From positions 1,426,001 through 1,490,000 of the forward strand of contig JAQISU010000163.1 in assembly GCA_029339505.1 (NCBI GenBank): DNA of 64,000 bases. Direction: 5' to 3'. The stretch comes from Unio delphinus. Its lineage: Eukaryota; Mollusca; Bivalvia; Unionida; Unionidae. A program made the translations under genes and the position numbers. This document shows positions 5,746 through 41,746 of the stretch, piece after piece. The notes below the pieces were generated by a model. The model saw only the letters and a list, made by a program, of their open reading frames with translations. It did no database searches and was not told the origin of the DNA. Position 1 is the first letter of the stretch. Each line of letters starts with the position of its first letter.

Positions 5746-5759
5746 TATTATGTATACGA

Positions 5760-6254: not shown

Positions 6255-6298
6255 TGCGTCATATTTTTCATTTAGAAATATATCATTATTATAGAATA

Positions 6299-6655: not shown

Positions 6656-6737
6656 TTGACCATTTATCATTATTTGATTGCCCGACCATTTATCATTATT
6701 TGATTGCCCGACCATTTATCATTTTTTTTAGCCGACC
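6656..6737 (+). repeat. Short direct repeats after the 6299 gene
   Basis: Three tandem copies of a ~29-bp unit built on GACCATTTATCATTATTTGA, separated by TTGCCC; the last copy degenerates into a T run. It lies in the 347-bp gene-free gap before the virion block. Confidence 0.85.
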
Positions 6738-6765
6738 CTCAAGGGATGTTAAAAATCGATGGACG

Positions 6766-6942: not shown

Positions 6943-6974
6943 TCTGTTAGGTCGGATTGAAAAATTGTTTTACA

Positions 6975-7005
6975 ATTGAAAAATTGTTTCTGATTTCAAA
7001 TAATG
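6975..7005 (+). promoter_or_regulatory. Leader motif at virion genes, copy 1
   Basis: A 31-nt sequence ending in the start codon (core AAATTGTTTCTGATTTCAAA, then TAATG) is repeated exactly at 8071-8101, each time abutting the ATG. A looser version (AAAATCGTTCAGATTTCAC) precedes the ATG at 12063. Position and conservation suggest a late-type promoter giving almost leaderless transcripts. Confidence 0.65.
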
Positions 7006-8058
7006 GTCAATGAAGCATTAACAACCCGATTGGCTCGTGAACGACTGGATGCAATCAGGAGATTTGTACCAATTCGTGACTCTGTACGGAATAAACTACA
7101 ACAACGACAACAAGCGCAGACTGACTTTTCTGTGTCAAGTGAACAACTGTTTACTCCGATAACAAGTGCGACCAAAGATGTGAAAAAGTTAACTGAAGCA
7201 GCGATATATGGAGATATTCCTGAGCGAGAACGAGTAAAGAAGGCGCCGCTGCTTGATACGCTTGAAAAGATAGCAGCAGAGACCGGACAAACACACGCAG
7301 GGATACAACAGTTATCCAGTGATATAAAAACTCAGCGCGAGTATGAACGATTAGCTGATATTGATGATTCTGCGCCTGAAACTCAAAGAGTTTCCACACC
7401 TGAACCACAACCTGTTGATGTCGTCACCCCAAGAGGTATTCCCTTTATAGACAAATTCACCGAAGAAGCTATAACAGAAATAAAACAACCTCAATTAATA
7501 AAACTCGAAGATTATGCGGACTTTGGCGTTTTCGCTGTCCAAAAATATTATTCAAGGGGAGAGTTTTTAAAAGACGAGTATAAAAACAATAAAATAAGCC
7601 GAGATGACTGGGTTAATTGGTTGCATAAAATAAACAAGGATATTACTGGTAATTTGAAAAAGGATACAATTAAGTACAGAACTTTTAAGGCAGGAGTTGA
7701 TAGTTATGGTATACAAAAACAACAAGGTCGAGGCCGACAAAGGCAATTACTTGATGATAGTGAGGGCGCAACTGGTACAACTGAGGAAACAAGCGGAAAA
7801 GGATATTCGATTAAAAATCCAAAGGATTTCAACGCTGGAGTCTTTGACTATACCATGACATGTCCTGGTAGTGTTCTCAGTGATATATCACGGTTAGAGG
7901 TTCTCATCGGAGGAAAACGACCCGGAAATAACTCACCGGAAATAATTAATGAAGCAGCTGATATCTGTAGACGATTATTTCAGGGTGGTATCATGGATAT
8001 CAGCACATATCGAGATTTCATTGGCGAGTTAATGGAAAGTGGGTATCATAGTGACTGA
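7003..8058 (+). CDS. Putative minor virion protein
   Basis: A 351-aa protein opening the rightward virion block. The N-terminal third is helical and charged (TTRLARERLDAIRRFVPIRD), the middle is Pro/Glu-rich and a conserved C-terminal domain follows (TCPGSVLSDISRLEVLIGG, then PEIINEAADICRRLFQGGI). LIGGK fits the adenain cleavage pattern (L-x-G-G). A broken relative at 49847-50978 keeps both end domains but has a Lys/Glu/Gln-rich middle, so the centre evolves freely. Position before capsid genes and shared start motif suggest a virion or assembly role; I do not recognise a precise function. Confidence 0.65.
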   Translation: MVNEALTTRLARERLDAIRRFVPIRDSVRNKLQQRQQAQTDFSVSSEQLFTPITSATKDVKKLTEAAIYGDIPERERVKKAPLLDTLEKIAAETGQTHAGIQQLSSDIKTQREYERLADIDDSAPETQRVSTPEPQPVDVVTPRGIPFIDKFTEEAITEIKQPQLIKLEDYADFGVFAVQKYYSRGEFLKDEYKNNKISRDDWVNWLHKINKDITGNLKKDTIKYRTFKAGVDSYGIQKQQGRGRQRQLLDDSEGATGTTEETSGKGYSIKNPKDFNAGVFDYTMTCPGSVLSDISRLEVLIGGKRPGNNSPEIINEAADICRRLFQGGIMDISTYRDFIGELMESGYHSD

Positions 8059-8070
8059 ATTGAAAAGTCA

Positions 8071-8101
8071 ATTGAAAAATTGTTTCTGATTTCAAATAAT
8101 G
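8071..8101 (+). promoter_or_regulatory. Leader motif at virion genes, copy 2
   Basis: Exact repeat of the 31-nt motif at 6975-7005, again ending in the ATG of the next gene. Conserved where flanking DNA is not, so probably cis-acting. Confidence 0.65.
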
Positions 8102-8551
8102 ATCATACATTACAATCATTATAAACCAACCCCCGTCTATGTAGTTAATTCACGGTTTCCAGTTTATAAAGCATACTATGGTGATGGTTTAGGTAATACC
8201 ATTGCGGGGTTATTTGCAAGAATGGCTCCAAAAGTGATGCCGTTGGCTAAACAATTAGGAATGAAAGCAATTGATGTTATTCGTGATAAGGGTATTGGTG
8301 CTGTTGGAGATCTTGCTGGAAAAGCGTTTTCAGCCGCGAAGAATAAAATAACATCATTAGTGAGACGAAAAAAGAAACCGGTACCATTGCCATCTACAGC
8401 AGAAATGCCTGCAAGTGTTAGTAAAATAACAAATAACGCAGTAGATGAAAAACTAACATCATTGGTGACTCCCTTGATAAATCAAGGTGACCAAAATAAC
8501 ATGATAGCAAACATGATAGCAGGAAGTGGCTTTAAAAAAACACGACGATGA
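8099..8551 (+). CDS. Small basic virion/core protein candidate
   Basis: A 150-aa, strongly basic protein. The N-terminal part is aromatic (YNHYKPTPVYVV), then a Gly/Ala-rich amphipathic segment (NTIAGLFARMAPKVMPLAKQLG), a second (IGAVGDLAGKAFSAAKNKI), a cluster RRKKKP, and a C-terminal MIAGSGFKKTRR. IAGSG matches the adenain cleavage consensus (I-x-G-x before G). Composition and position just before the major capsid gene recall adenovirus core or pVI-like peptides. Function is inferred. Confidence 0.6.
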   Translation: MIIHYNHYKPTPVYVVNSRFPVYKAYYGDGLGNTIAGLFARMAPKVMPLAKQLGMKAIDVIRDKGIGAVGDLAGKAFSAAKNKITSLVRRKKKPVPLPSTAEMPASVSKITNNAVDEKLTSLVTPLINQGDQNNMIANMIAGSGFKKTRR

Positions 8552-8591
8552 AATGGAAAATCGCGATTTAGACTCTGATAAATAGAATAAA

Positions 8592-10055
8592 ATGTTCAAA
8601 AGGTCACCCGATCCAGCATTTGATATGGATGCCCCAGTTCTCAAGAATGATTCTGTACGCGATTTTCAATTTTATTCTTATCACGCAGTACAACCAGATC
8701 TCCGATCGCGAATTGAACTTCAAGTTCATGATACCAGTAAATATTTTCTACCGTGTGAGGCATTTATTGAAGTAGAAGGAGAACTTGTAACAAATGTTGC
8801 AGCTGATACCCCATATGACAATAACGCAAATGTCCGAGTTGGTTTTGTTAATAACGGCATAATGGCGTTATTTGAAAGCGCTAGATATCTCATTGATGGA
8901 AAAGAAATTGAATCCATTGACCGTGAAGTTGATGTGGCCACAACAATCATAGGGTTAGCGAGATATTCTGATGATTATACAAGATCAGCGGGTCCATCTA
9001 TGATGTTTGCAAAGGATACCTCTGATAACGCTGATCACCTTCAATTCATTAAAGTGTTAACAGCAAGAGATAATGCAGAAGCCGATCAACAGGAAGCAGC
9101 TAATCCAGAACGTCGAACTAGACCCGGAGCTGCGTTTGATATTCTCGGAGGCGTTAATGGTAATCTCAATTTAGGATTTGCAACACGTGTAGCAACGTTG
9201 CATGGGCAGCGTCGACGATTTTCATGTGCGATTCCACTGCATCATATATTTGGATTCTGTAGAAACGTCCGAAAAGTTATTTATGGAGCTAAACACACAG
9301 TAGCGCTTGTACGAAAGGGTACTGATGATGATGCAATCTGGCGTAATGCTGGGGTTGCTCCCGGTAAAGTCATTTTAACAAAACTATCATTGTGGATGCC
9401 AGTATTAACTCCATCAATCACCGAAGAACAACGACTACTATCATTTATGGACCAAGGAGGAAAGTTGTTGTTAAGTTGGTTATCAGTGACCACGGATATT
9501 AAACAAGACAGTGTTGATGGTACATTCACATGGCACCTGGCATCAAAACAAGGTGTTTCAGCTCCACGTCATATATTCGTAGCGTTACAGAATAATGCGC
9601 GAGTTGGTAATCAAGAACGAAGCCATATGATATTTGATCAGTTAGGTGTTAATGAAGTCTCGCTGAGAATAAACGGACAGCAGGAACCATCCGAGGATAT
9701 ACAACTTGATTACGGTCAGAATCATATTGCACGTGTGTATCATAACCTGTTGTCATATATGTCACGTGATCTAAATGTGGATACTGGTTTGCAAATATCA
9801 CAATTAGATTTCAAAAGCCTCTATCCGATTTATTACTTTTCGCTGGAACATCTTGATTTAACAAGACAATCTGTCGTTGATATACACTTTAGAGCCCGTG
9901 TAACCCGTCCGACTGGTCCACCAGTTGGTGGGGTACCTCCTATCCTTATCCCGAATTATAGAGCGGTTGCTGTCATTCTTAGTGATAAATCAATGCTACT
10001 TGAAGGTGTTGGAGGAAGAATGAGAGTGGTAGATGCACCAGTGGAAAACATGTAA
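8592..10055 (+). CDS. Major capsid protein (hexon-like double jelly-roll)
   Basis: A 487-aa protein matching the Polinton/adintovirus major capsid family in length, layout and conserved blocks: VGFVNNGIMALFESARYLIDGKEIES near residue 75, FSCAIPLHHIFGFC near 210, KVILTKLSLWMPVLTPSI near 260, TFTWHLASKQGVSAPRHIFVALQ near 310, and a C-terminal LYPIYYFSLEHLDLTRQS. Trimers of such proteins form the pseudo-hexagonal capsomers of icosahedral virions. The frame is intact. It stands between the small basic protein and the pX-like gene, the usual neighbourhood. No other copy occurs in the window, so the 33447-41746 element has no capsid gene of its own. I am confident of the family; the fold is inferred. 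Confidence 0.85.
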   Translation: MFKRSPDPAFDMDAPVLKNDSVRDFQFYSYHAVQPDLRSRIELQVHDTSKYFLPCEAFIEVEGELVTNVAADTPYDNNANVRVGFVNNGIMALFESARYLIDGKEIESIDREVDVATTIIGLARYSDDYTRSAGPSMMFAKDTSDNADHLQFIKVLTARDNAEADQQEAANPERRTRPGAAFDILGGVNGNLNLGFATRVATLHGQRRRFSCAIPLHHIFGFCRNVRKVIYGAKHTVALVRKGTDDDAIWRNAGVAPGKVILTKLSLWMPVLTPSITEEQRLLSFMDQGGKLLLSWLSVTTDIKQDSVDGTFTWHLASKQGVSAPRHIFVALQNNARVGNQERSHMIFDQLGVNEVSLRINGQQEPSEDIQLDYGQNHIARVYHNLLSYMSRDLNVDTGLQISQLDFKSLYPIYYFSLEHLDLTRQSVVDIHFRARVTRPTGPPVGGVPPILIPNYRAVAVILSDKSMLLEGVGGRMRVVDAPVENM

Positions 10056-10085
10056 ACGATTTAGAATCAATCAATTATGTATAAC

Positions 10086-10547
10086 ATGTCATATAGTGCT
10101 ATTAGTGTTGCGTTAACTCCCGGTCAATTAAAAAAATTGCAATCGGAATCAGCTAAAAAATGTGGAACCACAATCACGTTGAAACCCAACCAAATGACTG
10201 GTGGTGCAAATAAATTATCACTGACAACTCGTCAAATAAAACATTTCAATGATGCACTTGCAGCCAAAAAAGGTGTTCAGATTACTCTTTCTGCGGCTGC
10301 TATCAAAAATATGATTAAAACAGGCGGTATATTTCCATTGTTAGCTGCGATTCCAGCATTGATTGCAGCAGCAGCCCCAGCGGTGGCTAAAGCGGCAGCG
10401 TTAGGAGCCGTTGGTACTGCAGCAGGAATGGCACTAAAGAAAGCAACTGGGAAAGGATATAAAAAAAAGGGAAAGGGTCTAAGACTACCAGGAACCCCGT
10501 ATTCGTGGTACAGCGGAAAGGGTCTAAGACTAGGACCGGTTTATTAA
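10086..10547 (+). CDS. pX/pVI-like core or membrane-active peptide precursor
   Basis: A 150-odd residue precursor. The N-terminal third carries two related modules (VALTPGQLKKLQ, SLTTRQIKHFNDAL). Then come QMTGGANK, a perfect match to the adenain site (M-x-G-G before any residue), a long Ala-rich hydrophobic helix (FPLLAAIPALIAAAAPAVAK) and a basic tail with two GKGLRL repeats. Cleavage at the Gly-Gly would release a hydrophobic-basic fragment, as with adenovirus pVI/pX. I choose ATG 10086 over 10077 only because the conserved part starts there; either is possible. It overlaps the start of the protease frame. Confidence 0.65.
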   Translation: MSYSAISVALTPGQLKKLQSESAKKCGTTITLKPNQMTGGANKLSLTTRQIKHFNDALAAKKGVQITLSAAAIKNMIKTGGIFPLLAAIPALIAAAAPAVAKAAALGAVGTAAGMALKKATGKGYKKKGKGLRLPGTPYSWYSGKGLRLGPVY

Positions 10548-10558
10548 TTGGAGAGTCT

Positions 10559-11056
10559 ATGACTCAGGAACCTATGGTTCCCAAATCTTCGATGGTTCCC
10601 ATGTCCAATTTTGATTTACTCGATGCTGCTAAAAAACTCGCGATTAAAAACTTCAGAGGTGTCTTTATGAAAGATCAATTACCACATCAACCAAACAGCG
10701 TTGAAACCGGAATCATTAATTTAGATAACAGCAACGGACCTGGAACTCACTGGGTTGCATACGCTATTGATCCACGTGGGATTGTTTATTTCGATTCATA
10801 TGGATTAGCCCCACCAAAAGAGTTTATGCGTTATATAAAAACCCTTCCAATGAAGACTTGGTATTCTACGCTACCAACACAACAAATGAATGACCCACCA
10901 ATATGTGGCAGCGAAGTATTAAATGTCCTTAACGCTATTTCTAATTCCTTGAGTAATCCAAGCGGAAAACCACCACATATTGTCGTTAATGAATACACTA
11001 GTAATCGCTGGAGAAAATCGAAGATTTTTCAACGAAGTCGTCAAAAACGATTTTAG
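10559..11056 (+). CDS. Adenain-type cysteine protease (maturation protease)
   Basis: Virion maturation protease of the adenovirus/Polinton (Ulp1-like, C5) family. The catalytic His is in GTHWVAYAID, the Asp in GIVYFDSYGLAPP, the oxyanion Gln in the TQQMNDPP region and the Cys in PICGSEVLNVL, in the H-D-Q-C order of the family. Length (about 165 aa) fits. The open frame starts at 10505 inside the previous gene; likely starts are ATG 10559 or the later ATG 10601 (MSNFDLLDAAKKLAI). It probably cleaves the pX-like, small basic and 7003-8058 proteins, which carry L/M/I-x-G-G or I-x-G-x-G sites. Confidence 0.88.
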   Translation: MTQEPMVPKSSMVPMSNFDLLDAAKKLAIKNFRGVFMKDQLPHQPNSVETGIINLDNSNGPGTHWVAYAIDPRGIVYFDSYGLAPPKEFMRYIKTLPMKTWYSTLPTQQMNDPPICGSEVLNVLNAISNSLSNPSGKPPHIVVNEYTSNRWRKSKIFQRSRQKRF

Positions 11057-11080
11057 AGAGAGAAAGAGTTTTACAATAAC

Positions 11081-12028
11081 ATGATTGATATTTGGGGGAG
11101 ATCTTTGAAACCCAAACCCGATGGCACTGCACCACATGATTCTGTCAAGGATATAAAAAAAATAATTGAAGATGAAATCGCTGAGACGTTGAACTTAACA
11201 AATGTTGATCCTAATGAAATAGTTGTATTTCAAGACAAACAGGGTAAATTGAAAACTAGTGATGTGTCGTTGGATGATATTTTAGTTAAACAACGAAACG
11301 CAATCGAGAATACTATCGCGTTATTTTCCGATCAGGGTAAATTGAAAACCAGTAATATTTCTCTGGATGATATTTTGGTTAAACAACAAAACGCAATCGA
11401 GGATACTATCGCGCTATTTTCCGATCAGGGTAAACTCAAACCGGGTGTACTCGTTTCGACGATTACAGATCGATTAAAAACTCTCAACGATGAGTTAAAC
11501 AATTCTGTGTTTGTACTAACAACACTTGAATCTAGAATTGAAGAAAACGGAAAACAGTTTATATCATTTCGTAGAAATATCATTGATAAATTTATTGGAA
11601 CCCCGTTAGATAAAATTGAAATAAAACTCCCTGATATTAAAAAATCCATCGATGAGACGAAAAACTTCATCGAAGCCATCAAAGGTGATTTTTCGAGGAT
11701 GATAACAATCATTGAAAAAACAAAAATTCCTCATGAGAAAACCAACAACGTAGTAAACACGATCCAACACGGATCATTTGCGTGGACACCTACAAACAAC
11801 AAATTAGATATCACTGCAACCGTCAAGGGTATTTATCGATTAACACTAGTAACACCATTGACTCAATTTAATATTTCATCGTCCAGTTCATCCGGGGTCA
11901 ATAATACGATTTCAACGATCATCGACAAGGATACAACTGAAAAGTTCACTATAACAGCTACTGATAAAAATTTGATTAGGGTTTCAGCAACCTGGTATGT
12001 GGAATTCGTAGCGGATTTAAGTAAATAA
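11081..12028 (+). CDS. Fibre-like protein with coiled coil and 31-aa repeats
   Basis: A 315-aa protein. Residues ~50-125 hold two and a half copies of a 31-residue repeat (DQGKLKTS...LDDILVKQ...AIE), nearly identical at DNA level. A helical, coiled-coil-like stretch follows (to ~225), and a beta-rich C-terminal domain of ~90 residues (FAWTPTNNKLDITATVKGIY through VSATWYVEFVADLSK) resembles a small trimeric head. Shaft plus head suggests a fibre or spike, and repeat number could set shaft length (inference). It follows the protease by 24 bp on the same strand. I do not recognise a close family. Confidence 0.6.
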   Translation: MIDIWGRSLKPKPDGTAPHDSVKDIKKIIEDEIAETLNLTNVDPNEIVVFQDKQGKLKTSDVSLDDILVKQRNAIENTIALFSDQGKLKTSNISLDDILVKQQNAIEDTIALFSDQGKLKPGVLVSTITDRLKTLNDELNNSVFVLTTLESRIEENGKQFISFRRNIIDKFIGTPLDKIEIKLPDIKKSIDETKNFIEAIKGDFSRMITIIEKTKIPHEKTNNVVNTIQHGSFAWTPTNNKLDITATVKGIYRLTLVTPLTQFNISSSSSSGVNNTISTIIDKDTTEKFTITATDKNLIRVSATWYVEFVADLSK

Positions 12029-12032
12029 CTAA

Positions 12033-12065
12033 ATTGAAAGGAAAATCGTTCAGATTTCACAAATG
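12033..12065 (+). promoter_or_regulatory. Diverged leader motif, copy 3
   Basis: ATTGAAAGGAAAATCG followed by TTCAGATTTCACAAATG: same order and spacing as the motifs at 6975 and 8071, again ending in an ATG (12063), in front of the broken membrane-protein gene. Confidence 0.5.
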
Positions 12066-12973
12066 AAAACGCTAGTGTTTTTAAAATAAAAATGATTTCA
12101 TCAACGCAATGTCGCTATGATCAATCAATCAATCAATCCTCTCTGCGCCGTCTGGTGCTTGAGGCAACAGCAAGGGAGCACCATTTCCGTCTGTCGGCAG
12201 CTATTGCAGGGGCGATCTGATAGGTGAGGCCTCTGGTCTTAAGGTCTCTCTCCACTGTTCGTCGCCAGGTCTCTTTGGGTCTGCCGCGGTTCCTTTTACC
12301 CTGTGGGATCCATCTCAGTGCCACCCTTGGTAGTGAGTCAGGAGGCATTCTGCAGACATGGCCGAGCCATCTCCATCGCCGAGTTGAAATGATCTCAGAG
12401 ATGGTGCTTGCACCCGCTCTGTGCCGAAGTTCCTCATTTGAGATCATTGTCGCTATGATCAGGTCAGAGAATTTCAGAATAGACTCAAAACCCTCACTGA
12501 GGAGTATCAAATAAAAATAAAAAAAATACCGACGAAGAATTACCGCAATTGATGTTATTATATACTCGGTGTCAAGCGTTCTCACTGGCGCCGGAATAAT
12601 ACTTGCATCGGTTACAATGATTGCCCCGGTCGTAGTTCCAATTTGCATTTCTGCGGTGGCTACAATCGGGGGTATATCAACCGGGATAGCAAAAAAGATA
12701 TCATGCAGCCAGAGTAAACTGCAGAATTACTTAATTCAATTTCATATTGCATCAACCGCATATTCGCAATTATCATTGATGATATCGTCGTCACTCGATA
12801 ATAAAATTATAACAGATAGTGAATTCTCAGCGATGGTCAGTATTTTTGATTCCGCGATATCGAAATTAGAGCGACAACATGAATATAATAACAATGACAA
12901 CACCGATGGAATTAGAAAACACGAACCCAAAAACCAGAATGATCTCAATAACCTCAACCATACCAAATTGTGA
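12063..12973 (+). pseudogene. Small hydrophobic membrane-type protein, split by a LINE insertion
   Basis: A conserved Polinton-like virus gene type: an N-terminal charged helix, a central Gly/Ala-rich hydrophobic segment (TGAGIILASVTMIAPVVVPI and CISAVATIGGISTGIAKKI) and a C-terminal helix ending with a KIITDSEFSAMVSIFD-type block. The N-terminal part can be read from ATG 12092 up to the insertion and continues in the same phase beyond it, but then leaves phase near 12545; the C-terminal frame is 12569-12973. A 324-bp LINE fragment (12124-12447) lies inside. Its C-terminal coding DNA was also duplicated (12819 onward). Clearly disrupted. The original product was probably a virion membrane-active or inner protein (inference). 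Confidence 0.6.
12124..12447 (-). mobile_element. 5'-truncated LINE fragment inserted in a viral gene
   Basis: Minus-strand 3' end of a non-LTR retrotransposon. It encodes the typical C-terminal block (RRWRWLGHVCRMP, LPRVALRWIPQGKR, GRPKETWRRTVE) and ends in a (TGAT)n-type tail, seen on + as TCAATCAATCAATC. It is flanked by a 14-bp target duplication TGTCGCTATGATCA at 12110-12123 and 12448-12461. It is a later host-genome insertion into the integrated virus; a related copy is at 45664-45827. Confidence 0.92.
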
Positions 12974-13135
12974 GTTCTTAGTGATGGTCAGTATTTATGA
13001 TTCCGCGGTGTCAAAATTAGAGCGACAACATGAATATAATAACAATGACGACACCGATGGAATTACTTCAACAAATAGTGGAGAACACGAACCCAGTACA
13101 AACAAGTATGATATCAATAACATCAACGGAACCCG
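12819..13135 (+). repeat. 151-bp tandem duplication before the penton-like gene
   Basis: Sequence from 12819 (GTGAATTCTCAG) recurs from 12970 (GTGAGTTCTTAG) with small changes and one ~16-bp insertion. The duplication copies the end of the membrane-protein gene and the start of the next gene, including ACCTCAAC/ACATCAAC near each penton-like start. The first copy is a decaying relic. Confidence 0.85.
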
Positions 13136-14397
13136 AGTTTAGTGTGAATTTCCCTAGCCCAGTCCCCGTGAAGGAGATAGCGCTAGCAAAACTACGAGTG
13201 TATCACAGTTGGCCTAATATCAGATCAAAATCATTTGGTGGTCAACAACCGAATAATTCACTGGTATTTGCAAATAAGAATAAAGACGACGGAACCCCAG
13301 ACTGGAACGTCGTTTCGATACCAACAGGGTCATACCAAATCGAACAAATCAATAATGAATTCGCGCGTAGAATAAAATCGATTACTGGAACAGAATCGAA
13401 AATCGCTATAACAGTTCATGAGCCGACGCTATCATCCGCAATTGAGATAAACACAGAAGGATACGTCGTAGATATCTATCAGAGTTCTATTAGAACCGTA
13501 CTAGGATGGCCTGAATTACCACCAAGGGGGAAAACCGTTGATTTACCAGAACCACAAAAAACTGATTATATCACCGACAGAATAAAACCTGATAATCCAA
13601 TAAAGAGTTATAGCGATTATGATAAATTGTATTTTTTTATTGAATTGGTAGATCCTCCCACTAAGAAGATCTACCACATTCTTCAACCGGATGACCCCAC
13701 TGTAAATTTCGGAGCGATGAATAGCGATATTTCGTTGTTGTTTATATCCCTTAGATCCGGCACACTCACCCAAGATGAATTTATCAGCGTTGTAGAAACA
13801 TGTAACAAAATCATCAATGACATGGAAACATTTTATGCGCAAATCATTCAAGAGGTATTAGGTGAAAGTAATCCTAAAACAAGAGATATTTTTGCAACAG
13901 ACTATAAAATCTCCGTGAAGGATATTCCGACATTCAAACTACCAGGATATAACGTACCAGAACTAAAAAAACTTCTCAATGATGCCATCGATGTTGGGTT
14001 TAAAATAATTCATGATACGTGGAAAAAAACAGTATCACCGGAAATAAAAATCCTCAAACACAATAATGACCCAGATGGTGGTGGCAGGCATATTGCTCCG
14101 TTCAACGTGAATATATCCTCAGTGATTGCGCTCAATTTAGTATGTGATGTTATCGAAGGAAGCTATCAGATTAATCTCGAACGATCAAATCAAGCTCAGC
14201 AAGGATATATTCTTTATTCGTTTGCACCAACAGCTCCTCCAGGATTTTTAATAATTGAGTCTCCGGTTAATCCTGTCTACATGCGATGCCATAATAATTC
14301 GTTAACGAGAATTAATTTCAAACTCACAGATCAGTCCAATAATCTAATTGATCTACAAGAAGAGGTGTTAGCGATTAGTCTGTTTGTGAGATCCTAA
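13108..14397 (+). CDS. Penton-like/minor capsid virion protein of the adintovirus-like element
   Basis: About 429 aa. The N-terminal beta-type domain (FSVNFPSPVPVKEIALAKL, VVSIPTGSYQIEQINNEF) and the C-terminal domain (VIALNLVCDVIEGSYQINLE, RINFKLTDQSNNLIDLQEE) match a virion protein found next to capsid genes in many Polinton-like viruses, proposed as a penton or minor capsid component. I start at ATG 13108 (MISITSTEPEFS), because the relatives at 40118 and 51001 start with the same block; the open frame reaches back to 13030 through duplicated DNA. The copy at 40118-41407 is nearly identical except for one patch near residues 170-210. Alternative: spike or receptor-binding protein. Last gene before the element end. 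Confidence 0.75.
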   Translation: MISITSTEPEFSVNFPSPVPVKEIALAKLRVYHSWPNIRSKSFGGQQPNNSLVFANKNKDDGTPDWNVVSIPTGSYQIEQINNEFARRIKSITGTESKIAITVHEPTLSSAIEINTEGYVVDIYQSSIRTVLGWPELPPRGKTVDLPEPQKTDYITDRIKPDNPIKSYSDYDKLYFFIELVDPPTKKIYHILQPDDPTVNFGAMNSDISLLFISLRSGTLTQDEFISVVETCNKIINDMETFYAQIIQEVLGESNPKTRDIFATDYKISVKDIPTFKLPGYNVPELKKLLNDAIDVGFKIIHDTWKKTVSPEIKILKHNNDPDGGGRHIAPFNVNISSVIALNLVCDVIEGSYQINLERSNQAQQGYILYSFAPTAPPGFLIIESPVNPVYMRCHNNSLTRINFKLTDQSNNLIDLQEEVLAISLFVRS

Positions 14398-14435
14398 AGA
14401 CTTGATCAAATCATTTATTATTTTTATTAACCTGT

Positions 14436-14700
14436 AGCAGCAGAGAGGGTGGATGACAACAAGTTGCGACCAAAATTGATTAAAAAATCGTAAAAGTCTC
14501 CGTTTTCATTTTTTTTAGTTAAAATGAGATTTCGTAGGGAAGGCTCGTTAAAATTTCAATCATTTTTTTGTCAAAAAACGTTGCAGGGTTTTCCCCTGAG
14601 ACATTTTTTTTGGTTAAAATGAGATCGTAGGAAGGATCGTTTTAATGATTCAATCAAAATTTTGTCTGAAAACGTTGTAGGGTTCACCCTCTCTGCTGCT
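14436..14700. repeat. Right terminal unit of the adintovirus-like element
   Basis: Starts AGCAGCAGAGAGGGTG (14436-14451) and ends with the inverse, CACCCTCTCTGCTGCT (14685-14700). Inside are two ~97-bp tandem copies of a unit with TTAAAATGAGAT and AACGTTG-AGGGTT. The terminal GCAGCAGAG is shared with 33448 and 41737-41746 and, diverged, with 49668. I take 14700 as the element's outer edge; the inward-facing copy at 14436 is unusual. Confidence 0.75.
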
Positions 14701-33446: not shown

Positions 33447-33450
33447 AGCA

Positions 33451-33955
33451 GCAGAGGAGGCGTATCGGACAACGTTTTTAAACAAGTTTTCAATGGATTA
33501 GGGCTTAAAACCCAATCAAAACGGCTTCAAATCAATGAAACAGGCAAAAAATAATAATGAAAAATCAATGAAATCAGTCCAAAAAAAATAATGAAATCAA
33601 AAAAAAAAAAGAAAGAGGAGGCGTATCGGACAACGTTTTTAAAGAAGTTTTCAATGGATTAGGGCTTAAAACCCAATCAAAACGGCTACAAATCAATGAA
33701 ACAGGCAAAAAAATAATAATGAAAAATCAATGAAACAGGCAAAAAATAATAATGAAAAATCAATGAAATCAGTCCCAAAAAAATAATGAAATCAAAAAGA
33801 AGAAAGAGGAGGCGTATCGGACATCGTTTTTAAACAAGTTTTCAATGGATTAGGGCTTAAAACCCAATCAAAACGGCTACAAATCAATGAAACAGGCAAA
33901 AAAATAATAATGAAAAATCAATGAAACAGGCAAAAAATAATAATGAAAAATCAAT
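33451..33955. repeat. Left terminal repeat, three tandem sub-units
   Basis: The unit GAGGAGGCGTATCGGACA...AAACAGGC occurs at 33454, 33617 and 33808 (spacing 163-191 bp). The right end (41523-41746) has just one. The repeated internal motifs are TCAATGAAA and AATAATGAAAAATCAATG. Uneven copy number at the two ends suggests expansion by recombination. Confidence 0.92.
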
Positions 33956-34246
33956 GGTGAATTAACAACTCTGACACAATCTCATCTCAGATGCTAAATA
34001 TAACAGCAGTGAGATTTTTCCTAAAATAATTATTTTTTCTGCATCAAACATATATCACCACTTTTTGTTGTTGTTATTGCGAAATTGCTTTAGTAAATAA
34101 TAACAGTTGAGTAACAGTAATAACAACAACAAAAAGTGGTGATATATTTTTGATGCAGAAAAAATAATTATTTTAGAAAAATCTCACTGCTGTTATATTT
34201 AGCATCTGAGATGAGATTGTGTCAGAGTTGTTAATTCACCATCTGA
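33949..34246. repeat. ~300-bp near-perfect hairpin (MITE-like)
   Basis: Arms of about 130 bp: ATGGTGAATTAACAACTCTG at 33953 is mirrored by CAGAGTTGTTAATTCACCAT ending at 34242, with TAACAGCAGTGAGATTTTTC and TTTTTGATGCAG blocks inverted between them. The loop is ~20 nt around GCTTTAGTAAATAAT. It interrupts the third terminal sub-unit, so it is probably an inserted MITE; it could also serve as a replication hairpin. Confidence 0.9.
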
Positions 34247-34760
34247 AGCTTATATAATGAATGATACTGATACAATTATTGATTGTTGCAACAGAGTCAT
34301 TTAAATATTTTTATTTATAGTGCCATTGAAATATTTTTATTTATAGTGCCTTTTGGTGGTTTTTTTTATGTCATTTTGGTGGTTTTTGGTGGTTTTTTCA
34401 CTGATTTTATGCCTTTTTGGTTGTTTTTTCACTGATTTCATTTGAAAATGTCAAAGAGATTTTACGGTCAAATGGTCGATTTTGCATGGGATTTTCCGTA
34501 GAAAAAAGCTGTTAGGATTGATTTTCATTGATTTCTAGCCAATTTTTGATGATTTTGATGATTTTTAGTCATTTTTTGATGATTTTTCATAAAAAAACCT
34601 CGTAGGGTTAAGTAGTCGATTTTGCATTGAAGTTCTCGTAGAGAAAAGCTGTTAGGATTCATTCAGTATGAAATATTTTTATTTATAGTGTCATTGAAAT
34701 ATTTTGTGGGTTTTTCAGTCACGTGGTCGATTTTAACACCAGTGACAAAGTCACCGTAGA
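34247..34760. other. T-rich non-coding left arm of the satellite-like element
   Basis: Imperfect repeats of TATTTTTATTTATAGTG, TTTTGGTGGTTTTT and AAAAGCTGTTAGGATT. No frame of note. Confidence 0.7.
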
Positions 34761-34945
34761 AGTCTTTCATTGATGGGGAAAGTCACATAAAATATTTTTT
34801 TGACATCAATGACATGTCAGATGATTTTTAACACCATTGTGGAAGTGTTTTAACAGCTCTATCTTTGATGGGGAAAGTCACATAATTGTATATAAAATAA
34901 ATAATACTGCGACTTTCCCCACTTTTCCCTTGATCAATCCGACAT
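34760..34945. promoter_or_regulatory. Palindrome module of the satellite-like element (counterpart of 6766-6942)
   Basis: GGGGAAAGTC at 34870-34879 and its complement at 34911-34920 enclose an AT-rich spacer with TTGTATATAAAATAAATAAT. On the minus strand the order GATATGTCGGATTGATCAA - arm - TTTTATATACAA - arm - CACTTCC - TGTTAAAAATCATCTGACAT is the same as in the 1-14700 element. A half-site (TGATGGGGAAAGTCACATA) is repeated at ~34772. It lies directly 3' of the fragment at 34934-35179. Confidence 0.75.
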
Positions 34946-35179
34946 ATCATATCGAGAGAACCATCCATTAACGGTCCAAACATTGTAGTGTGTGTATCCG
35001 TCGCTGACTAACAAATATAATTCTTTATTATCAGAGTATAATTCTATTGCCGTTGAAATAAATGAAGTGTATGCGGAAAAAGTCACTAATGGCAAAGCCA
35101 ATGGCAACACCATCAATGATAAAATCACCAACAATGACAGAGTTATCAATGGTAGAGCCATTAAAAGAAAAAAACACAA
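34934..35179 (-). pseudogene. Duplicated C-terminal scrap of the primase-helicase gene
   Basis: The end of this frame (THYNVWTVNGWFSRYDMSD) resembles the end of the helicase frame at 35867 (FHIWTVNGWLVRYQIH), and both stops are followed at once by a palindrome. The rest has no similarity I can see. It is probably a duplication scar. The overlapping plus-strand frame 34992-35291 (99 aa, Lys-rich, GTG start) is an alternative reading. Confidence 0.45.
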
Positions 35180-35512
35180 ACAACCCTCCGATGACTCATG
35201 GAAAAAGCATATTCCTGACCAGGACCGTGAAGTCGATGAAATTCTTTATCCAAAGAACCTTTCAATGAACAATTTCGTCGTAAAAAAATAATTTAACGAA
35301 CTACAAGAACGGAATCATAGACCTATTTAACGAGATTTTGTCGTTGAGAAAATTTATGTTGCAATCGTTCAGATCGGTTCTCAAGCATTTTTCCCCTTGG
35401 TGATTTTTGAACTGTCCTGAATTTCCCATTATGATATTTCACTTTGACAGAACAATGGGGTTGTCCCTGAATGATCTATATCACATTTCAGATAGGTCAT
35501 TACTATTTTTAA

Positions 35513-35743
35513 TTATTGAACTTCAATTTGCGTTTGAAATGAACTACTGGAAGAAGCCTGTTGATATTTTCTGGAGAGACGGACACGTGCTGTGGCATCT
35601 CGATTTACTCGGGTTGCTATCGGATGCACAATTCCATCTGGACCCTTGTAAGATATTTTGCGGCGCCCATTATTGAATTTCTCTGAAAACTTCCCACTGG
35701 GATATTTTTGACGCATTTGTTCGATTGATTCTGTCGCAATCAT
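35513..35743 (-). CDS. Small basic protein, unknown
   Basis: A 76-aa frame starting MIATESIEQMRQKYPSGKFS with a central YKGPDGIVHPIATRVNRDAT and a Ser/Gln-rich tail. It begins ~60 bp beyond the palindrome at 35804-35854, on the same strand as the helicase gene, so it could be the next gene of that transcription unit. A further short minus frame (~35330-35480, KYHNGKFRTVQKSPRGKMLE) shares the YxNGKF-type start, hinting at a repeat family. No function assigned. Confidence 0.4.
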   Translation of the reverse strand: MIATESIEQMRQKYPSGKFSEKFNNGRRKISYKGPDGIVHPIATRVNRDATARVRLSRKYQQASSSSSFQTQIEVQ

Positions 35744-35803
35744 ATATTATAGTTAATCTTTAAAAAGATATCCATTACATGTTTCTATTGTCCCACGATC
35801 GGT

Positions 35804-35854
35804 GTTGAAACGGAACATTACATTTTATTTTATATGAAAAGGTGCCGATTCAAC
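35804..35854. promoter_or_regulatory. Intergenic palindrome with TATA-like spacer
   Basis: GTTGAAACGGAAC (35804-35816) pairs, with two mismatches, with GTGCCGATTCAAC (35842-35854) around ATTACATTTTATTTTATATG. It is located between the stop of the helicase gene and the next minus-strand gene. Spacer almost identical to that at 39946-39997, arms different. Confidence 0.7.
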
Positions 35855-35866
35855 ATTTTTAATTTT

Positions 35867-38800
35867 TTAGTGTATTTGATACCGGACCAACCAGCCATTA
35901 ACCGTCCAAATATGAAATTTAAGCCATGCTGTGTGATCATTTACCGCGGAAATATCTTTACCGGCAATTTCATAATCATCGGTGATAAATGTTTCTCGCC
36001 ATCCACTGTCATTAAAACAGTCAGGAATGGGCCAACTAGGATACGTTAAAGTATAATTGCCCCGGCTTGGGTTTATCTTATTATCTGCGGTTAATTCAGC
36101 ACCGTATCGTTTATAAATCATTTTGATTTTCTCTATGATATTTCTTCGGTCTGTGGTTTTTCTTGATTTTAATTTGGTCCCGGGAAACAATTCAGAGAAG
36201 TTGTTAATCAAAGTGTTATATTTTTCTTTGTCCGTAATTATCGCTGATACAGCTTCATTGAGGTTATTCACGGGAATAATTGTCGTTGTTAGGTCATCAG
36301 GAACAACATTTGGTAATTTCGCCAATTTGATAATTTCGGTAATTATTTCATCTTGCTGTCTCGGAGATAAACAATCGCTTCTAAACACTTTTCGCTGAAA
36401 TATTTTTCCATCGTTGTGATCAGCAATTATTTTCTCCTGATAATTTATCACAGCAGGGATTTTTTTGTAATGTTGTTCAATTTGTTCTGGGGGAAGTTTG
36501 CTAATATCACACTGATAGATGTAATTAAGATAATTTAATTTCTGCTGATATGGTGATAAATTAAAATCATCGTGATATTCGTAATAATTGATCCTGTTGG
36601 ATATTTTTCCAGAAAAAAGCTTTTCAATGTCATTATCGGTGATCTCGGGATTATTTACCAAGGATGCATTTTTCACACGCTCTCCAAAACTCATTAACAG
36701 ATCATCAGAGACATTTCTGTTGTCGGGGTATTTTTGAAGTAGTTTATCCAGTTTGGACTTTTTTTGTTGGTTTCCAAGTTGTATAATCCATAGGGGAAAC
36801 TGTAACAATTTCATATCCCGTACGTCTCATAGATTCGATTAGCCGTGGAGTAAAGAAACATCTTGATGCATTTTCCTCAACAATGTAACTGATATATGCT
36901 TGGCCGAAACTTGTATTGATATCAGATATGTTAGGTAGTCTATTATCCCGTTCCGATGCGGTTAAATTCCGTTCATTATTAATTATTCTCGCGATAACAT
37001 CTTCCCGGGTCACTGGCAACCCATGTGATATTTTTCTTGATACCGAGTAATGAATTTCAGAAATATTCCTGAATCGATGAATTGCCTGTTTAGTGGCTTC
37101 AACAGATCCAACTTCAAACGAGAATACGAATAACACATCAAATTGTCCATCAATGATAGATACTCCTGCTTCGAGTGTATGATTAAAAATCACCATCCTG
37201 GTGTTAGCAAATGCCGCAACGGGATCAGAAAAGTCTTTGTGTTTAACAATGCTATCGGTATCAGCATGATAGTGTTTTTCAGAAATATTTCTTCGTTGTG
37301 CTTCCTTAGCGATTTCTTCTACAGAAAAGTTTCCATGGCGCTTATAATGGCAAAATACCCCGCATCGTTTAGTGCCATCATTGAGATATCTCCATAACAG
37401 CTGGTAATTTTCTTCATTGGAATTTTCCAAATAAAACTTCTTCCCGTTGTCCGGTTTATAATCGTTAATAATGAATTTTATTCCAGGACGCATCATTGAG
37501 AGTATTTTCTTGTCATCGTCGTTGGCATCTGCGTCCAACGCAATAAAATGTCTCGCAGTAGTGATTAGCCCATCAAACCTTTCCCACATTGGTTTACTTC
37601 TTGATGGATTCGAAAAGATCTGACTGTATATTCCATGAAGCTCATCAGCGATAACAGTGCTAGGTGTTCCTGTAACCCTCGTCAAGGAATCAACTTGAAC
37701 AACAACTCGTGTGGGTAATTTTTCATTAAAATGAATATCACCAGCGATTTCATTATACAACTGAATTTGTTGATCAGCTGCGGTTTTACTCGATAATGTT
37801 TTTCTATAGCTGATATAGCATACAGATGAATCATCTGCGATTGATTTCCACGCAGCAATTGATTTCCCCATTCCACAAGCTGAACCATCTAAATAATCAT
37901 CACTGGAACCAATACAACCTCGTCCTGAAATATGTGCTGGTGGTTCCGTATAAATAAAATCAGGAACCCTCGTGGGAAATTCACCCCCGTAGCTATCTCG
38001 TTGTAACCCCATCAAGTATTTAATATATCCTGCTGATTTTTCTGTGGCTGTTAACGGCGATGCAACAGCATCTACGGCATTGTCAGGAGATCCCGATAAA
38101 TAATTAGCGATTCTTGAGTCCAAGTTGTCCCTATTTACAACAATCTTTTTCCCGTGAAATCTCGGGCAAATAATATCATAATGATCGTCATATTCATATA
38201 CCAGACAATTATCACAACTCGGTTCAATAACATCAAATGCAGCATTGTATCCATGACGTCGTTTGCAAATAACACAATAGTGTCCAGGTCGTCTAGCAAA
38301 TGTGATTCTATTTCCACTTGATGTTATTTGTGAGATTATTTGATCGGGTTGTCCAGTTAGCGCCGTTGATATTGCAATAACATTTTCATCTTAAACGCTA
38401 GTGTTCACGGGATAATTAAATTCAACAATCCCCACTGGAACATTTTCGTGTACACTTATTAATGGATCAACAGGACCATCCAACGATCGTTTACAAATAC
38501 TGTTAGGCGATTTTTATTTGGTCCCGGGCAACTTGAAACTGTAGACCCCAGCAATCTTATCAATGTTCCAATCAGGATTATCCGTTGCAGCCTTTGATAT
38601 TAATGTCCGATGTGTTTGAAAATCCACAATAAGATCAACAACAACATGATATCCTTTTGTTGTTTCAAATACAACAACGGTACCATATTGTTGAAAGTAT
38701 TTTCTAACCGCAACAAGATCTGGTTTAAAATCAATATCACAGATGAACTTTCTGCGTCGTTGTTGTAAAATAATCTCATTAACACATGATTTTCCTTGAT

Positions 38801-38940
38801 AATGTAACATATCAAATTGTTCATAGTTGTCCCACACATGGAATTGCCCCATCGATTGAATAATTGGTTTTGATAAGATTATACCATCAGGAGTCAATGA
38901 TTGGACCGCATCCACTTTTTTATCAAATATATGATATTGT
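35867..38940 (-). pseudogene. AEP primase - zinc - herpes OBP-type helicase replication protein, broken
   Basis: Reading leftward. Primase part (38514-38915): CDIDFKPDL carries the paired catalytic acidic residues and KGYHVVVDL the following S/G-x-H-type motif of archaeo-eukaryotic primases. Then two CxxC-type pairs (HYCVICKRRHGY, PSCDNCLVY; 38160-38320). Then a superfamily-2 helicase of the herpesvirus origin-binding protein type (36744-38123): SACGMGKSIAAW (Walker A), VIADELHGI (DExH), HFIALDADAND, and AIHRFRNI (motif VI). A C-terminal domain follows (35867-36814). The primase, zinc and helicase parts are in one phase but separated by TAA at 38514-38516 and 38391-38393; the C-terminal part is in another phase, changing near a seven-A run (~36756-36762). 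It probably replicated the element without PolB. Confidence 0.8.
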
Positions 38941-39612
38941 TACAAGCACAGGGGTATTCACTTGACCGAGCGGTGTCAAAACCCTGGCGCGAGTCACGCT
39001 GGAAGTCATATGTTTTCCCCAAATTTCCAAAGACTTCCATACAACTTGAGTTGTAAAATGGAAAGAAAGACGTGTCTGCTATGATTATTAATCTTTGCTG
39101 TAATCAATGGGCGACCCAGAGGAGACAACTTGCCCAAACGTCCATTAACTACACCTTTACATGGTTTTTCTTCATTATCATCCGTTTTCCGTACCGATAG
39201 CTTGTCATGCCATAGAAATTACACCAGTATTCCCTTACTAACTGGGAAATATTTAACTGCGCGACCCTAGGCCAGTCCATCCACAGAATTTCCGGCGTAT
39301 CACACTCATATACATACGCCAATTTTCCACTATGGCCACATAAACGGTACCTACCAAGTTCCAACTTATTGATTCCATTCTATAATTTACTGATTTCCAA
39401 CCATAAATGCTGCCTTTTCAATCACACTACTTGTATACACCACTGAATTTTAATATGGACTACGTTACAAAAAGGGACAGTCATTCGGCTTGTACCCAAA
39501 ATCACTACTAACGACCCAAGCATGCTTCAAATTCACTAACACTTACTCCAAATTTATTACAATATGATATCATTTTATATATATATATATATAATTTCAA
39601 ATGTCTAATTAA
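38941..39612. other. Region upstream of the primase gene
   Basis: Open minus-strand pieces (39149-39364, 71 aa, starting MELGRYRLCGHSGKLAYVYE; and ~38940-39060) might be the missing primase N-terminus or a small separate gene, but they are not in one phase and I recognise no motif. A (TA)n tract is at 39573-39592. Confidence 0.4.
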
Positions 39613-39614
39613 AT

Positions 39615-39635
39615 GACATTATTTTATATACAATG
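39615..39635 (+). promoter_or_regulatory. TATA-type start element of the satellite zinc-ribbon gene
   Basis: ATTATTTTATATACAATG touches the start codon. It is the same arrangement as at 5324-5343, and TTTTATATACAA is also the spacer core of the palindrome at 6793-6847. Confidence 0.5.
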
Positions 39636-39929
39636 CCATCTTGCAAACTCGCTACAAATAAATGCGTATGGCTATCACAACAAACAATAACCCCGTGTGG
39701 AAAAAACTCATACGGGAAATTCTGTGGAACACACGCAATGTTCGCAAAACTCGGTAAATCGGATGGTCCAAGACCATGTCGAGGTTGTGGAAAAGGTGTT
39801 CGGGGAAAATATCAGTTGTGTATGGATTGCGGTGGCCATCAATATCGATCAATTGTCAATCAAGACATTAAGATGTCCAGAACTCCAACAACTATAGAAG
39901 AATTTCTTCGTGATAGAACCTCAATTTGA
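39633..39929 (+). CDS. Zinc-ribbon protein of the satellite-like element
   Basis: A 98-aa homologue of the protein at 5341. N-terminal cluster KCVWLSQQTITPCGKNSYGK then FCGTH, and ribbon CRGCGKGVRGKYQLCMDCGG; the G-V-R-G-K-x-Q-L-C core is the same in both. It lacks the 8-aa repeats of the larger element's version. It is intact and followed within 20 bp by a palindrome. Shared possession with the 1-14700 element argues that both need it, perhaps for common transcription or replication signals (inference). Confidence 0.75.
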   Translation: MPSCKLATNKCVWLSQQTITPCGKNSYGKFCGTHAMFAKLGKSDGPRPCRGCGKGVRGKYQLCMDCGGHQYRSIVNQDIKMSRTPTTIEEFLRDRTSI

Positions 39930-39945
39930 TGGCTCTATGTTGAGT

Positions 39946-39997
39946 GGGGAAACGGCACATTACATTTTATTTTATATGAAAAAGGTGCCGTTTCCCC
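39946..39997. promoter_or_regulatory. Perfect 13-bp intergenic palindrome
   Basis: GGGGAAACGGCAC (39946-39958) and its exact complement (39985-39997) flank a 26-nt spacer with ATTTTATTTTATATG. It lies between the zinc-ribbon stop and the penton-like gene, followed by TTTTTAAAAATTTTCCC. Confidence 0.75.
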
Positions 39998-40117
39998 ATT
40001 TTTAAAAATTTTCCCTGTTATGATTTTTCTCGGAAGACTATTATACGCGTGTGTGTAGATATCAACAAACGGATCAGAGAGCCAATCGTTTAATCGACGA
40101 ACCCAGTACAAACAAGC

Positions 40118-41407
40118 ATGATCTCAATAACCTCAACGAATCCAGAATTCAGTGTGAATTTCCCCTCTCCGGTCCCAGTGAAGGAAATCGCACTAGCAAA
40201 ATTACGAGTATACCACAGTTGGCCAAATATTAGGTCAAAATCATTTGGTGGTCAACAACCGAATAATTCACTGGTATTTGCAAATAAGAATAAAGACGAC
40301 GGTACCCCAGACTGGAACGTTGTTTCCATACCAACCGGATCATACCAAATCGAACAAATCAATAACGAATTGCAACGTAGAATAAAATCGATTACTGGAG
40401 CAGAATCGAAAATAGCTATAACGGTTCATGAGCCAACACTATCATCTGCCATTGAGATAAGCACAGAAGGATACGTCGTAGATATCTATCAGAGTTCTAT
40501 TAGAACCGTACTAGGATGGCCTGAATTACCATCAGGGTGGAAAACCGTTGATTTACCAGAACCACAAAAAACTGATTATATCACAGACAGGATAAAATCT
40601 GATAATCCAGTAAAAAGCTATAGCGATTACAATATAATGAATTTTTTTAATGGAGTGACAGATCCCTTCACTAAGAGAAAATACTACTTAATTCAACGGG
40701 ATAAAATCACTAAAAATTTCACAGCGTTCAATAATGATTTTTCACTGTTGTTAATATCTCTTAAATCAGGCTCTCTCACCCGATATGAATTTATCAGCGT
40801 TGTAGAAACATGTAACAAAATCATCAATGATATGGAAACATTTCATTCACAAATTATTCAAGAGGTATTAGGTGACAGTAGTCCTGAAACAAGAGATTTA
40901 TTTGCAAATGGATATAAAATCTCCGTCAAAGATATTCCAGCATTCAAAATACCAGGATATAACGTACCAGAACTACAAAAATCTCTCAGTGACACCATAG
41001 ATATTGGTTTTAAAATAATTCATGATGCATGGAAAAAAACAACATCACCGGAAATAAAAATCCTGACACATAATAATGACCCAGATGGTAGTGGCAGGCA
41101 TATCGCTCCTGAAAATGTGAATATTTCATCGGTCATAGCGATCAATTTAGTATGTGATGTTATCGAAGGAAGCTATCAAATAAATTTAGAACGATCAAAT
41201 CAAGCTCAGCAAGGATATATTTTGTATTCATTTGCACCAACAGCTCCTCCAGGGTTTCTAATCATTGAATCCCCAATTAATCCAGTCTATATGCGATGTC
41301 ATAATAATTCATTAACCAGAATTAATTTCAAACTCACTGACCAGTCCAATAATCTGATTGATTTACAAGACGAAGTTTTACAAATAAGTCTGTTTGTAAA
41401 GTCGTAA
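40118..41407 (+). CDS. Penton-like virion protein of the satellite-like element
   Basis: A 429-aa intact frame from ATG 40118 (MISITSTNPEFSVNFPSPVP), colinear with 13108-14397 and very similar to it at both DNA and protein level. The exception is a stretch of ~40 residues (around 172-212; MNFFNGVTDPFTKRKYYLIQ here against LYFFIELVDPPTKKIYHILQ there) that is strongly diverged. The C-terminal block RINFKLTDQSNNLIDLQDE is conserved. It is the only virion-type protein in the element and abuts its right terminal repeat, as in the larger element. It may let the element enter or alter the helper's particles (inference). Confidence 0.78.
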   Translation: MISITSTNPEFSVNFPSPVPVKEIALAKLRVYHSWPNIRSKSFGGQQPNNSLVFANKNKDDGTPDWNVVSIPTGSYQIEQINNELQRRIKSITGAESKIAITVHEPTLSSAIEISTEGYVVDIYQSSIRTVLGWPELPSGWKTVDLPEPQKTDYITDRIKSDNPVKSYSDYNIMNFFNGVTDPFTKRKYYLIQRDKITKNFTAFNNDFSLLLISLKSGSLTRYEFISVVETCNKIINDMETFHSQIIQEVLGDSSPETRDLFANGYKISVKDIPAFKIPGYNVPELQKSLSDTIDIGFKIIHDAWKKTTSPEIKILTHNNDPDGSGRHIAPENVNISSVIAINLVCDVIEGSYQINLERSNQAQQGYILYSFAPTAPPGFLIIESPINPVYMRCHNNSLTRINFKLTDQSNNLIDLQDEVLQISLFVKS

Positions 41408-41522
41408 AGACTTTCATCCTGAAAGGATTTTCGTCCTAAGGATTTTCCCCCCAGACAAGGTCTGGGACACGATATCGTATCGGACTTGATAAAATATTCG
41501 GTTGAAGACGTTTCGTTTGGCA

Positions 41523-41744
41523 AATGGAGGCTTTCTTTATTTTGATTTCATTATTTTTTTCTTTGACTGATTTCATTGATTTTTTCTTTGACTGATTTCA
41601 TTGATTTTTCATTATTATTTTTTGCCTGATTTCATTGATTTTTTTTGGCCTGATTTCATTGATTTTTTGCCTGATTTCATTGTTTTAAGCCTTAATCCAT
41701 TGAAAACTTGTTTAAAAACGTTGTCCGATACGCCTCCTCTGCTG

Positions 41745-41746
<2 letters not shown>
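41523..41746. repeat. Right terminal repeat of the satellite-like element
   Basis: Tandem TTTCATTGATTTTT/TGCCTGATTTCATT units, then AATCCATTGAAAACTTG, TTTAAAAACGTTGTCCG and ATACGCCTCCTCTGCTGCT, inverse of 33447 onward. Confidence 0.93.

Follow-up and report, generated by a model that had tools for sequence, protein, structure and literature searches.

A palindromic element family with Maverick/adintovirus ends in the bivalve Unio delphinus, probably a helper-dependent satellite

Introduction

Can an element without a capsid or an integrase of its own persist in an animal genome by exploiting a Maverick or adintovirus? This question is raised by a 64,000-nucleotide stretch of the genome of the bivalve Unio delphinus (the window; contig JAQISU010000163.1, positions 1,426,001 to 1,490,000). 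An 8.3-kb element with inverted termini (E2, 33447-41746) lies there in the neighbourhood of a Maverick/adintovirus (E1), and the original prediction took E2 to be a satellite that depends on it. Mavericks and adintoviruses are often termed viruses from gene content alone, so that a parasite of their particles would be informative about the helpers as well. Relatives of E2 were sought in the 2.5-Gb genome; the other palindrome and replicase loci found in it are given C-numbers, and E2 itself is on contig C172. These loci form a palindrome family, probably a satellite that depends on the resident Maverick/adintovirus as its helper. Helper dependence, as proposed at the outset, survives as the most convincing interpretation of these loci. 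The satellite itself, however, is a palindrome, about 14-15 kb long in the longest copies, and not the 8.3-kb element.

The mobile unit is a palindrome

DNA of the putative primase-helicase gene of E2 (Rep) matches the genome at 42 places, from a search in which 40 of 539 first-look candidates were scored. A 26-base word from Rep has 40 sites, against none for the control, which resolve into 17 inverted pairs and six singles (C1, C49, C172, which is E2, C187, C339 and C347). All 17 pairs lie on the same contig in plus-then-minus order. The satellite is rare, with 23 Rep elements at the stringency of this word. Fifteen palindromes were examined, leaving out C37 and C117 of the 17 pairs and the singles C1, C187 and C339. 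For C49 and C347, no second arm was found within 6.0 and 5.7 kb beyond, respectively.

Read from end to end, C278 and C125 consist entirely of two inverted arms that are 99.4% and 97.2% identical, and their centres match a hairpin in E2 (33954-34242). The loop of this hairpin is partly conserved in C125, C171 and C278; the centres of C361 and C12 are altered. For the eleven palindromes that are uninterrupted and have both ends, the coordinates give these lengths: C278 (15,175 bp), C125 (15,160), C351 (15,121), C122 (14,360), C165 (14,264), C67 (14,047), C12 (13,394), C274 (11,846), C8 (11,576), C361 (10,253) and C255b (10,154). The six longest span 14.0-15.2 kb, compared with 15.8 kb for E1. 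A gap of 20 kb in C271 (2554300-2584934, 30.6 kb) and of 17 kb in C91 separates the Rep arms, and both copies are probably split near the centre by a nested insertion of about 13-15 kb.

What, then, is the element in the window? E2 is a one-off deletion derivative of such a palindrome, with a broken replicase. Three copies of the terminal repeat stand to the left of its hairpin, where an arm is expected, and the joint between terminal repeat and hairpin (33945-33969) occurs once genome-wide (at most two mismatches; control 0). Because this junction is found nowhere else, 8.3 kb is not the family-wide form, and 33447-41746 was rejected both as a repeated unit and as the mobile form. Several other features had been read correctly from the window. 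The inverted termini are complete (33447-33511 and 41682-41746, 65 nt, 98% complementary), and E2 contains no reading frame for a capsid, protease, PolB, integrase or ATPase. It does share with E1 the terminal GCAGCAGAG, a virion protein (E1 13021-14394; 85.6% amino acid identity over 437 aa, and 86.6% DNA identity over 1317 bp, E1 13087-14403) and a zinc-ribbon protein (E2 39609-39926 and E1 5323-5742; 50% identity over 66 aa). The primase-helicase replicon ascribed to E2 is present as a gene (Pfam Herpes_ori_bp, 1.4e-6) but is not intact, lying in three pieces in different frames. Contrary to the original prediction, the palindrome module is not in E1: positions 6600-7020 hold no inverted repeat of at least 25 nt, only a 170-bp patch of 72%.

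The E2 hairpin folds as DNA at -135.5 kcal/mol (z -29.9). As the flanks of E2 are (TA)n, its apparent target duplication, ATATA, is untrustworthy. A short sequence, ATTGTCATGCAGCAGGTATAT, is present on both flanks (33419-33446 and 41816-41840) beside the TA repeats; it is too long for a 5-bp duplication. A reverse-transcriptase-like frame (LINE-type, by eye) adjoins E2 on the left (31454-32125, minus strand).

Helper-type ends and target duplications

Both ends were recognised in 12 of the 15 palindromes; C171, C255a and C91 each lack one recognisable end. Eleven of the twelve are flanked by a perfect 5-bp duplication (TGAGT, CCCTA, TGTTG, AAGTG, AGTCC, AGACA, CTACA, CAGGT, CGTTG, TCACT and CTATC), and C255b by one matching at four of five positions. 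The duplication length is that of E1. C274 has several candidate termini, and the outer pair, with the same 5-mer on either side, was used. This copy interrupts a capsid gene of helper type and has a perfect 5-bp duplication, with capsid residues 202-237 in its left flank and 87-207 in its right (the flanks are not joined; loci L050 and L066). The palindromes are mobile. Dispersed copies with the same ends and target duplications, the check suggested with the original prediction, are supplied by this family, with its helper-type ends and 5-bp duplications.

The ends fall into several types. The terminal units of C67, C361, C255a and C122 are 94-98% identical to that of E1. C351 and C12 instead have units that match a different helper end, L007, at 93-95% identity and E1 at 84-87%, and in both copies the tip types match at the two ends. 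A third tip type, GGACAACRTTTTTA, with only 70-78% identity to E1, is common to E2, C165, C125, C278, C8 and C271. Between C255a and C12, identity is about 99% through Rep and 88-100% per 150-bp bin further out, yet falls to 70-79% over the outer ~290 bp, which points to a recent tip swap. In a penton tree (support 0.79-0.99), helper pentons lie between the two groups into which the palindromes fall; this tree was built without C274 (a helper flank) and C347 and includes four helper-type rows only, one of them decayed.

Genes carried and functions missing

From tip to centre, the C278 arm encodes an ATPase (Pox_A32, 8.5e-10), a zinc ribbon, a 149-aa protein, another zinc ribbon, Rep (1031 aa, PF02399) and a coiled-coil/helix-turn-helix (HTH)-like protein. 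The gene at the tip is a penton in seven of the 15 palindromes (C125, C165, C351, C122, C255a, C12 and C91) and an ATPase in five (C278, C67, C171, C361 and C271), counted mostly from one arm per palindrome and with several genes incomplete. The tip gene of E2 is the penton, as in C125 and C165. Penton and ATPase are the genes next to the right and left ends of the helper, respectively.

Sixteen E1 proteins were compared with 64 related loci. Inside elements, the matches were to the penton and, weakly, to a 43-aa stretch of the penton-adjoining E1 gene beside the C91 penton; no integrase, PolB, capsid or protease was found within the palindrome stretches read. Single matches to the E1 integrase (30%, in the C122 flank) and to an HNH-type protein lie at or beyond element ends, the two capsid matches are confined to the C274 flanks, and the penton match of C274 lies beyond the element end, in the helper into which it inserted. 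Relatives with their own capsid, ATPase and integrase had been named as the finding that would speak against a satellite; the ATPase is indeed present in the five palindromes listed above, and no capsid or integrase was seen. A simple defective helper, derived by deletion, was also considered and was rejected because pieces of Rep have no match in E1.

The right-end gene of E2 is predicted to encode a penton-like minor capsid protein. Its AlphaFold model (pLDDT 77) was matched by Foldseek, at low TM-scores, to the pentons of mavirus and adenovirus (E 9e-4 to 1e-3) and to a putative MELD-virus penton (1.7e-4); many better-scoring viral matches were unnamed giant-virus proteins. Penton relatives (P0007-P0012, P0015-P0017, P0019 and P0024-P0026) are also found on contigs of about 1-3 kb (JGI, ENA, Logan-type and NCBI), with P0007 reaching 70% identity over its full length. 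These short contigs may represent environmental DNA, either of free virus or of mussels.

The replicase

In some relatives Rep is a single stop-to-stop frame of 1031-1041 aa, and frames of more than 1000 aa are present in both arms of C351, C122, C274 and C255a. The helicase half matches PF02399 above the cut-off and has a full-length relative (P0006). The primase half has no Pfam primase match; its motifs DID and GYH are presumably those of a primase. A Rep relative of 1071 aa (43% identity, 98% coverage) is encoded on a 4.6-kb contig, and the closest annotated proteins, from Sinanodonta woodiana, match Rep at 73-90%. No relative was confirmed in viral contigs when these were scanned with the helicase piece, a Rep alignment, the penton or the capsid; the phage collection yielded only Vibrio phage replication proteins (23.5% identity), and a sequence search of PDB gave no convincing match. 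Foldseek matches of the C278 Rep model include the origin-binding protein (OBP) of herpes simplex virus 1 (HSV-1), but point only faintly to an OBP-like fold because the model is poor (pLDDT 50).

Arm copying and selection

Of the 12 palindromes represented by both arms in a tree built from 30 Rep segments, 11 have arms that group as sisters. Since the arms are mutually closest in these eleven, one arm was probably copied into two before insertion, the one serving as template for the other. The Rep arms are 98.2-100% identical, with divergence ranging from 0 to 1.8% among elements. Lesions in Rep are often private to one arm, which suggests that the arms decay independently after insertion; in C278, for example, the left arm has the 1031-aa frame and the right arm is broken.

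Codon comparisons indicate purifying selection on Rep, penton and ATPase. The ratio of nonsynonymous to synonymous divergence (dN/dS) of six intact Rep genes was 0.17-0.28 in 14 of 15 comparisons. For the penton it was 0.08-0.33 among palindromes and 0.08-0.22 in close groups (0.08-0.09 between E2 and C125, 0.22 between C255a and C12), and for the ATPase it was 0.17-0.19 between C278 and C271.

The candidate helper and its family

E1 is complete, running from position 1424897 of C172 to window position 14700 (15,804 bp), with ends AGCAGCAGAG and GTTTA on both sides. It has an rve integrase and a double-jelly-roll (DJR) capsid recognised by Pfam, a protease with a weak Peptidase_C5 match, a PolB frame (by eye) and a helicase frame; a packaging ATPase, similar to that of C278, adjoins the left end and the penton the right. 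The frame upstream of PolB contains, towards its N terminus, tandem repeats of about 30 codons that stay in frame (4750-5290). The features of both elements are collected in Table 1.

Table 1. Coordinates of E1 and E2 features in the window
Feature	Position	Strand	Remarks
E1, candidate helper-type Maverick/adintovirus	1..14700	.	left 1,104 bp, including the ATPase gene, outside the window
E1 right terminal repeat	14437..14700	.	98% identical to the left one; this unit type also caps several palindromes
E2, window copy of the satellite family	33447..41746	.	palindrome minus most of one arm; inverted termini, inverted-pair relatives, unique deletion junction
Remnant of lost arm	33447..33953	+	three tandem terminal-repeat copies, outer end AGCAGCAGAGGAGGCG
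Hairpin (centre of full palindromes)	33954..34242	.	stem arms 84 and 63 nt, loop ~34079-34118
Coiled-coil/HTH-like gene remnant	34989..35288	+	270 aa in C278
Rep C-terminal piece	35870..36826	-	frame differs from helicase piece
Rep superfamily-2 helicase piece	36747..38390	-	PF02399 1.4e-6 on 36744-38123; phrog_4913 6e-14
Rep N-terminal (primase-like) piece	38517..38939	-	
Zinc-ribbon protein	39633..39929	+	39609-39926 in E1 comparison; common to palindromes, distant relative in helper
Penton-like minor capsid protein (predicted)	40118..41407	+	40094-41404 in protein comparison; helper's right-end gene
Right terminal repeat	41555..41746	+	ends in CTCTGCTGCT

The E1 end type (32 bases, at most one mismatch) occurs at 2738 + 2719 genome sites (control 0), and among the matches listed there are many inward pairs 15-16 kb apart. 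GCAGCAGAG has 41,115 + 41,228 sites against 1,749 + 1,979 for the reversed word, about 22-fold over the control. The best 88 of 49,459 candidate capsid matches are all at least 98% identical, and 77 of the 88 are free of stops. The Maverick/adintovirus family is very large and could make up a large share of the genome. Among the matches typed from the initial 1.1 Mb of contig C1, 22 end pairs were seen, with eight of 21 successive spacings at 14.7-16.9 kb. The window also holds a decayed helper-type element (49844-57956) whose penton and ATPase genes lie head to tail, separated by about 180 bp with one degenerate terminus (52218-52401), the arrangement of a tandem or end-joined copy.

Discussion

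Two properties suggest a satellite: essential helper functions are missing from the palindromes as read, and their tip repeats are up to 98% identical to those of a resident helper with the same duplication length. How might such an element propagate? In the mechanism proposed here, Rep would replicate a one-arm, hairpin-ended form, and copying through the hairpin would produce the two-armed palindrome, so that both tips would always be a matched helper-end pair. The doubled form, now near the helper genome in size, would be inserted by the helper integrase and carried in the helper capsid, and the satellite's own penton or ATPase may help to claim helper particles. Recombination in co-infected cells would repeatedly swap tips between helper lineages. 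The fuller claim is that this is the first known satellite of an animal adintovirus, a half-size hairpin replicon that becomes a helper-size palindrome with matched captured ends and whose end swaps track diversifying helpers. The chances of that claim are, in our judgement, about even.

Several observations weigh against the satellite and its proposed mechanism. Packaging and helper dependence are proposed from genome sequence, and the end-to-end reading covers C125 and C278, so that a capsid or integrase could in principle lie in unread parts of the others. No helpers matching the third tip type (70-78% to E1) or the C171 tip (87-88%) were identified. C255b, C361, C8, C274 and C12 (10.2-13.4 kb) do not fit the helper size unless they were shortened after insertion, and in three of the 15 palindromes (C8, C255b and C274) neither of the helper's end genes was seen at the tips. 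The arms of C255a are not sisters, since C255a groups with C12, and C278 and C125 have unevenly distributed arm differences (variance/mean of 4.0 and 5.1, respectively). As for selection, the Rep dN/dS is 0.67 in the closest pair, C278-C255b (dS 0.018), the ATPase dN/dS is 1.08 between the two C278 arms (dS 0.016), and the penton dN/dS between groups may stem partly from evolution in helpers.

Could the palindromes be passengers that never enter a particle? A palindromic non-autonomous transposon might be cross-mobilised in the nucleus by a Maverick integrase, with penton and ATPase hitch-hiking along with the captured ends. This would account for ends and a duplication length matching E1, for carried genes that are exactly those adjoining the helper ends, for the three palindromes with neither gene, and for a family known here only as integrated genomic copies. 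Passive hitch-hikers would not be expected to look selected, however, as penton and ATPase do in close palindrome groups, although recent re-capture from helpers could mimic this pattern; we regard the passenger transposon as unlikely. Another possibility is that the palindromes are defective snap-back genomes of a complete meldvirus with a primase-superfamily 2 (SF2) helicase such as Meld19810, and not an established satellite. Viruses of this kind have been described (PMC11071296), and the 1071-aa Rep relative on the 4.6-kb contig also speaks for this reading. Among the 23 Rep elements, as far as read, there is no complete Rep-bearing virus, and selection on Rep across several lineages indicates an old state, which makes a defective meldvirus quite improbable.

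Two further alternatives concern the palindromes themselves. Chromosomal gene conversion could have homogenised the arms of old palindromes that are not remade each round, a view of arm copying that is compatible with a satellite. It is the uneven arm differences in C278 and C125 that leave room for it. Arm-private lesions and a divergence that varies by element (0 to 1.8% in Rep) speak for the other side, as do the Rep-sisters C12 and C255a, which differ in tip type, yet the C12 type is the same at both of its ends; gene conversion as the cause of arm identity is doubtful. Palindromes assembled from fold-back reads are a familiar artefact of long-read data. In 11 of 12 pairs the Rep arms are not identical, and eleven palindromes have distinct perfect 5-bp duplications at their outer ends; on these grounds an assembly artefact was rejected as hardly credible.

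If the palindromes are satellites, a parasite with its own functional penton or packaging ATPase that relies on a helper for everything else would be strong indirect evidence for transmissible Maverick/adintovirus particles in animals. The palindrome, its matched ends and the natural record of end swaps would also provide a testable model of satellite origin and helper tracking, set in a genome where helper-type ends number in the thousands.

Comparison with known systems

Transpovirons, virophages and phage satellites (P4, PICI) combine a replication module of their own with borrowed particles or ends. To our knowledge, none of them takes the form of an integrated palindrome whose helper tips can be exchanged. 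Textbook Polintons (Mavericks) produce a 6-bp target duplication, compared with 5 bp in this genome. The helper has the rve integrase, PolB, DJR capsid, adenain-like protease, penton and A32-type ATPase of Mavericks and adintoviruses. The satellite shares with them the end motif, the 5-bp duplication and often one gene; it differs in being palindromic, in having a putative primase-SF2 helicase and in lacking, as read, PolB, integrase, capsid and protease. Hairpin and duplex forms are reportedly also made by a deletion derivative of the linear Kalilo plasmid (Vierula and Bertrand, 1992), in which the likeness to the palindromes lies. Kalilo is a mitochondrial plasmid and is not known to use a helper capsid.

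In the open PMC literature, which was covered in part, no Maverick/adintovirus satellite or palindromic Polinton appeared among the titles and abstract openings of the matches listed. The helicases of transpovirons are placed in the S1H Tlr1-like group (PMC11071308). The Prim-S2H meldvirus Meld19810 has virion genes and a tyrosine recombinase (PMC11071296). It resembles the palindromes in combining adintovirus-type genes with a replicase of the type to which Rep probably belongs, whereas the palindromes, as far as read, have neither its virion gene set nor its recombinase. Adeno-associated virus (AAV) makes self-complementary DNA via a hairpin, both in its snap-back genomes and when it replicates by the rolling-hairpin mechanism (PMC8235507; PMC11575299). 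In AAV such DNA is reportedly a by-product or intermediate; in U. delphinus it is the inserted form.

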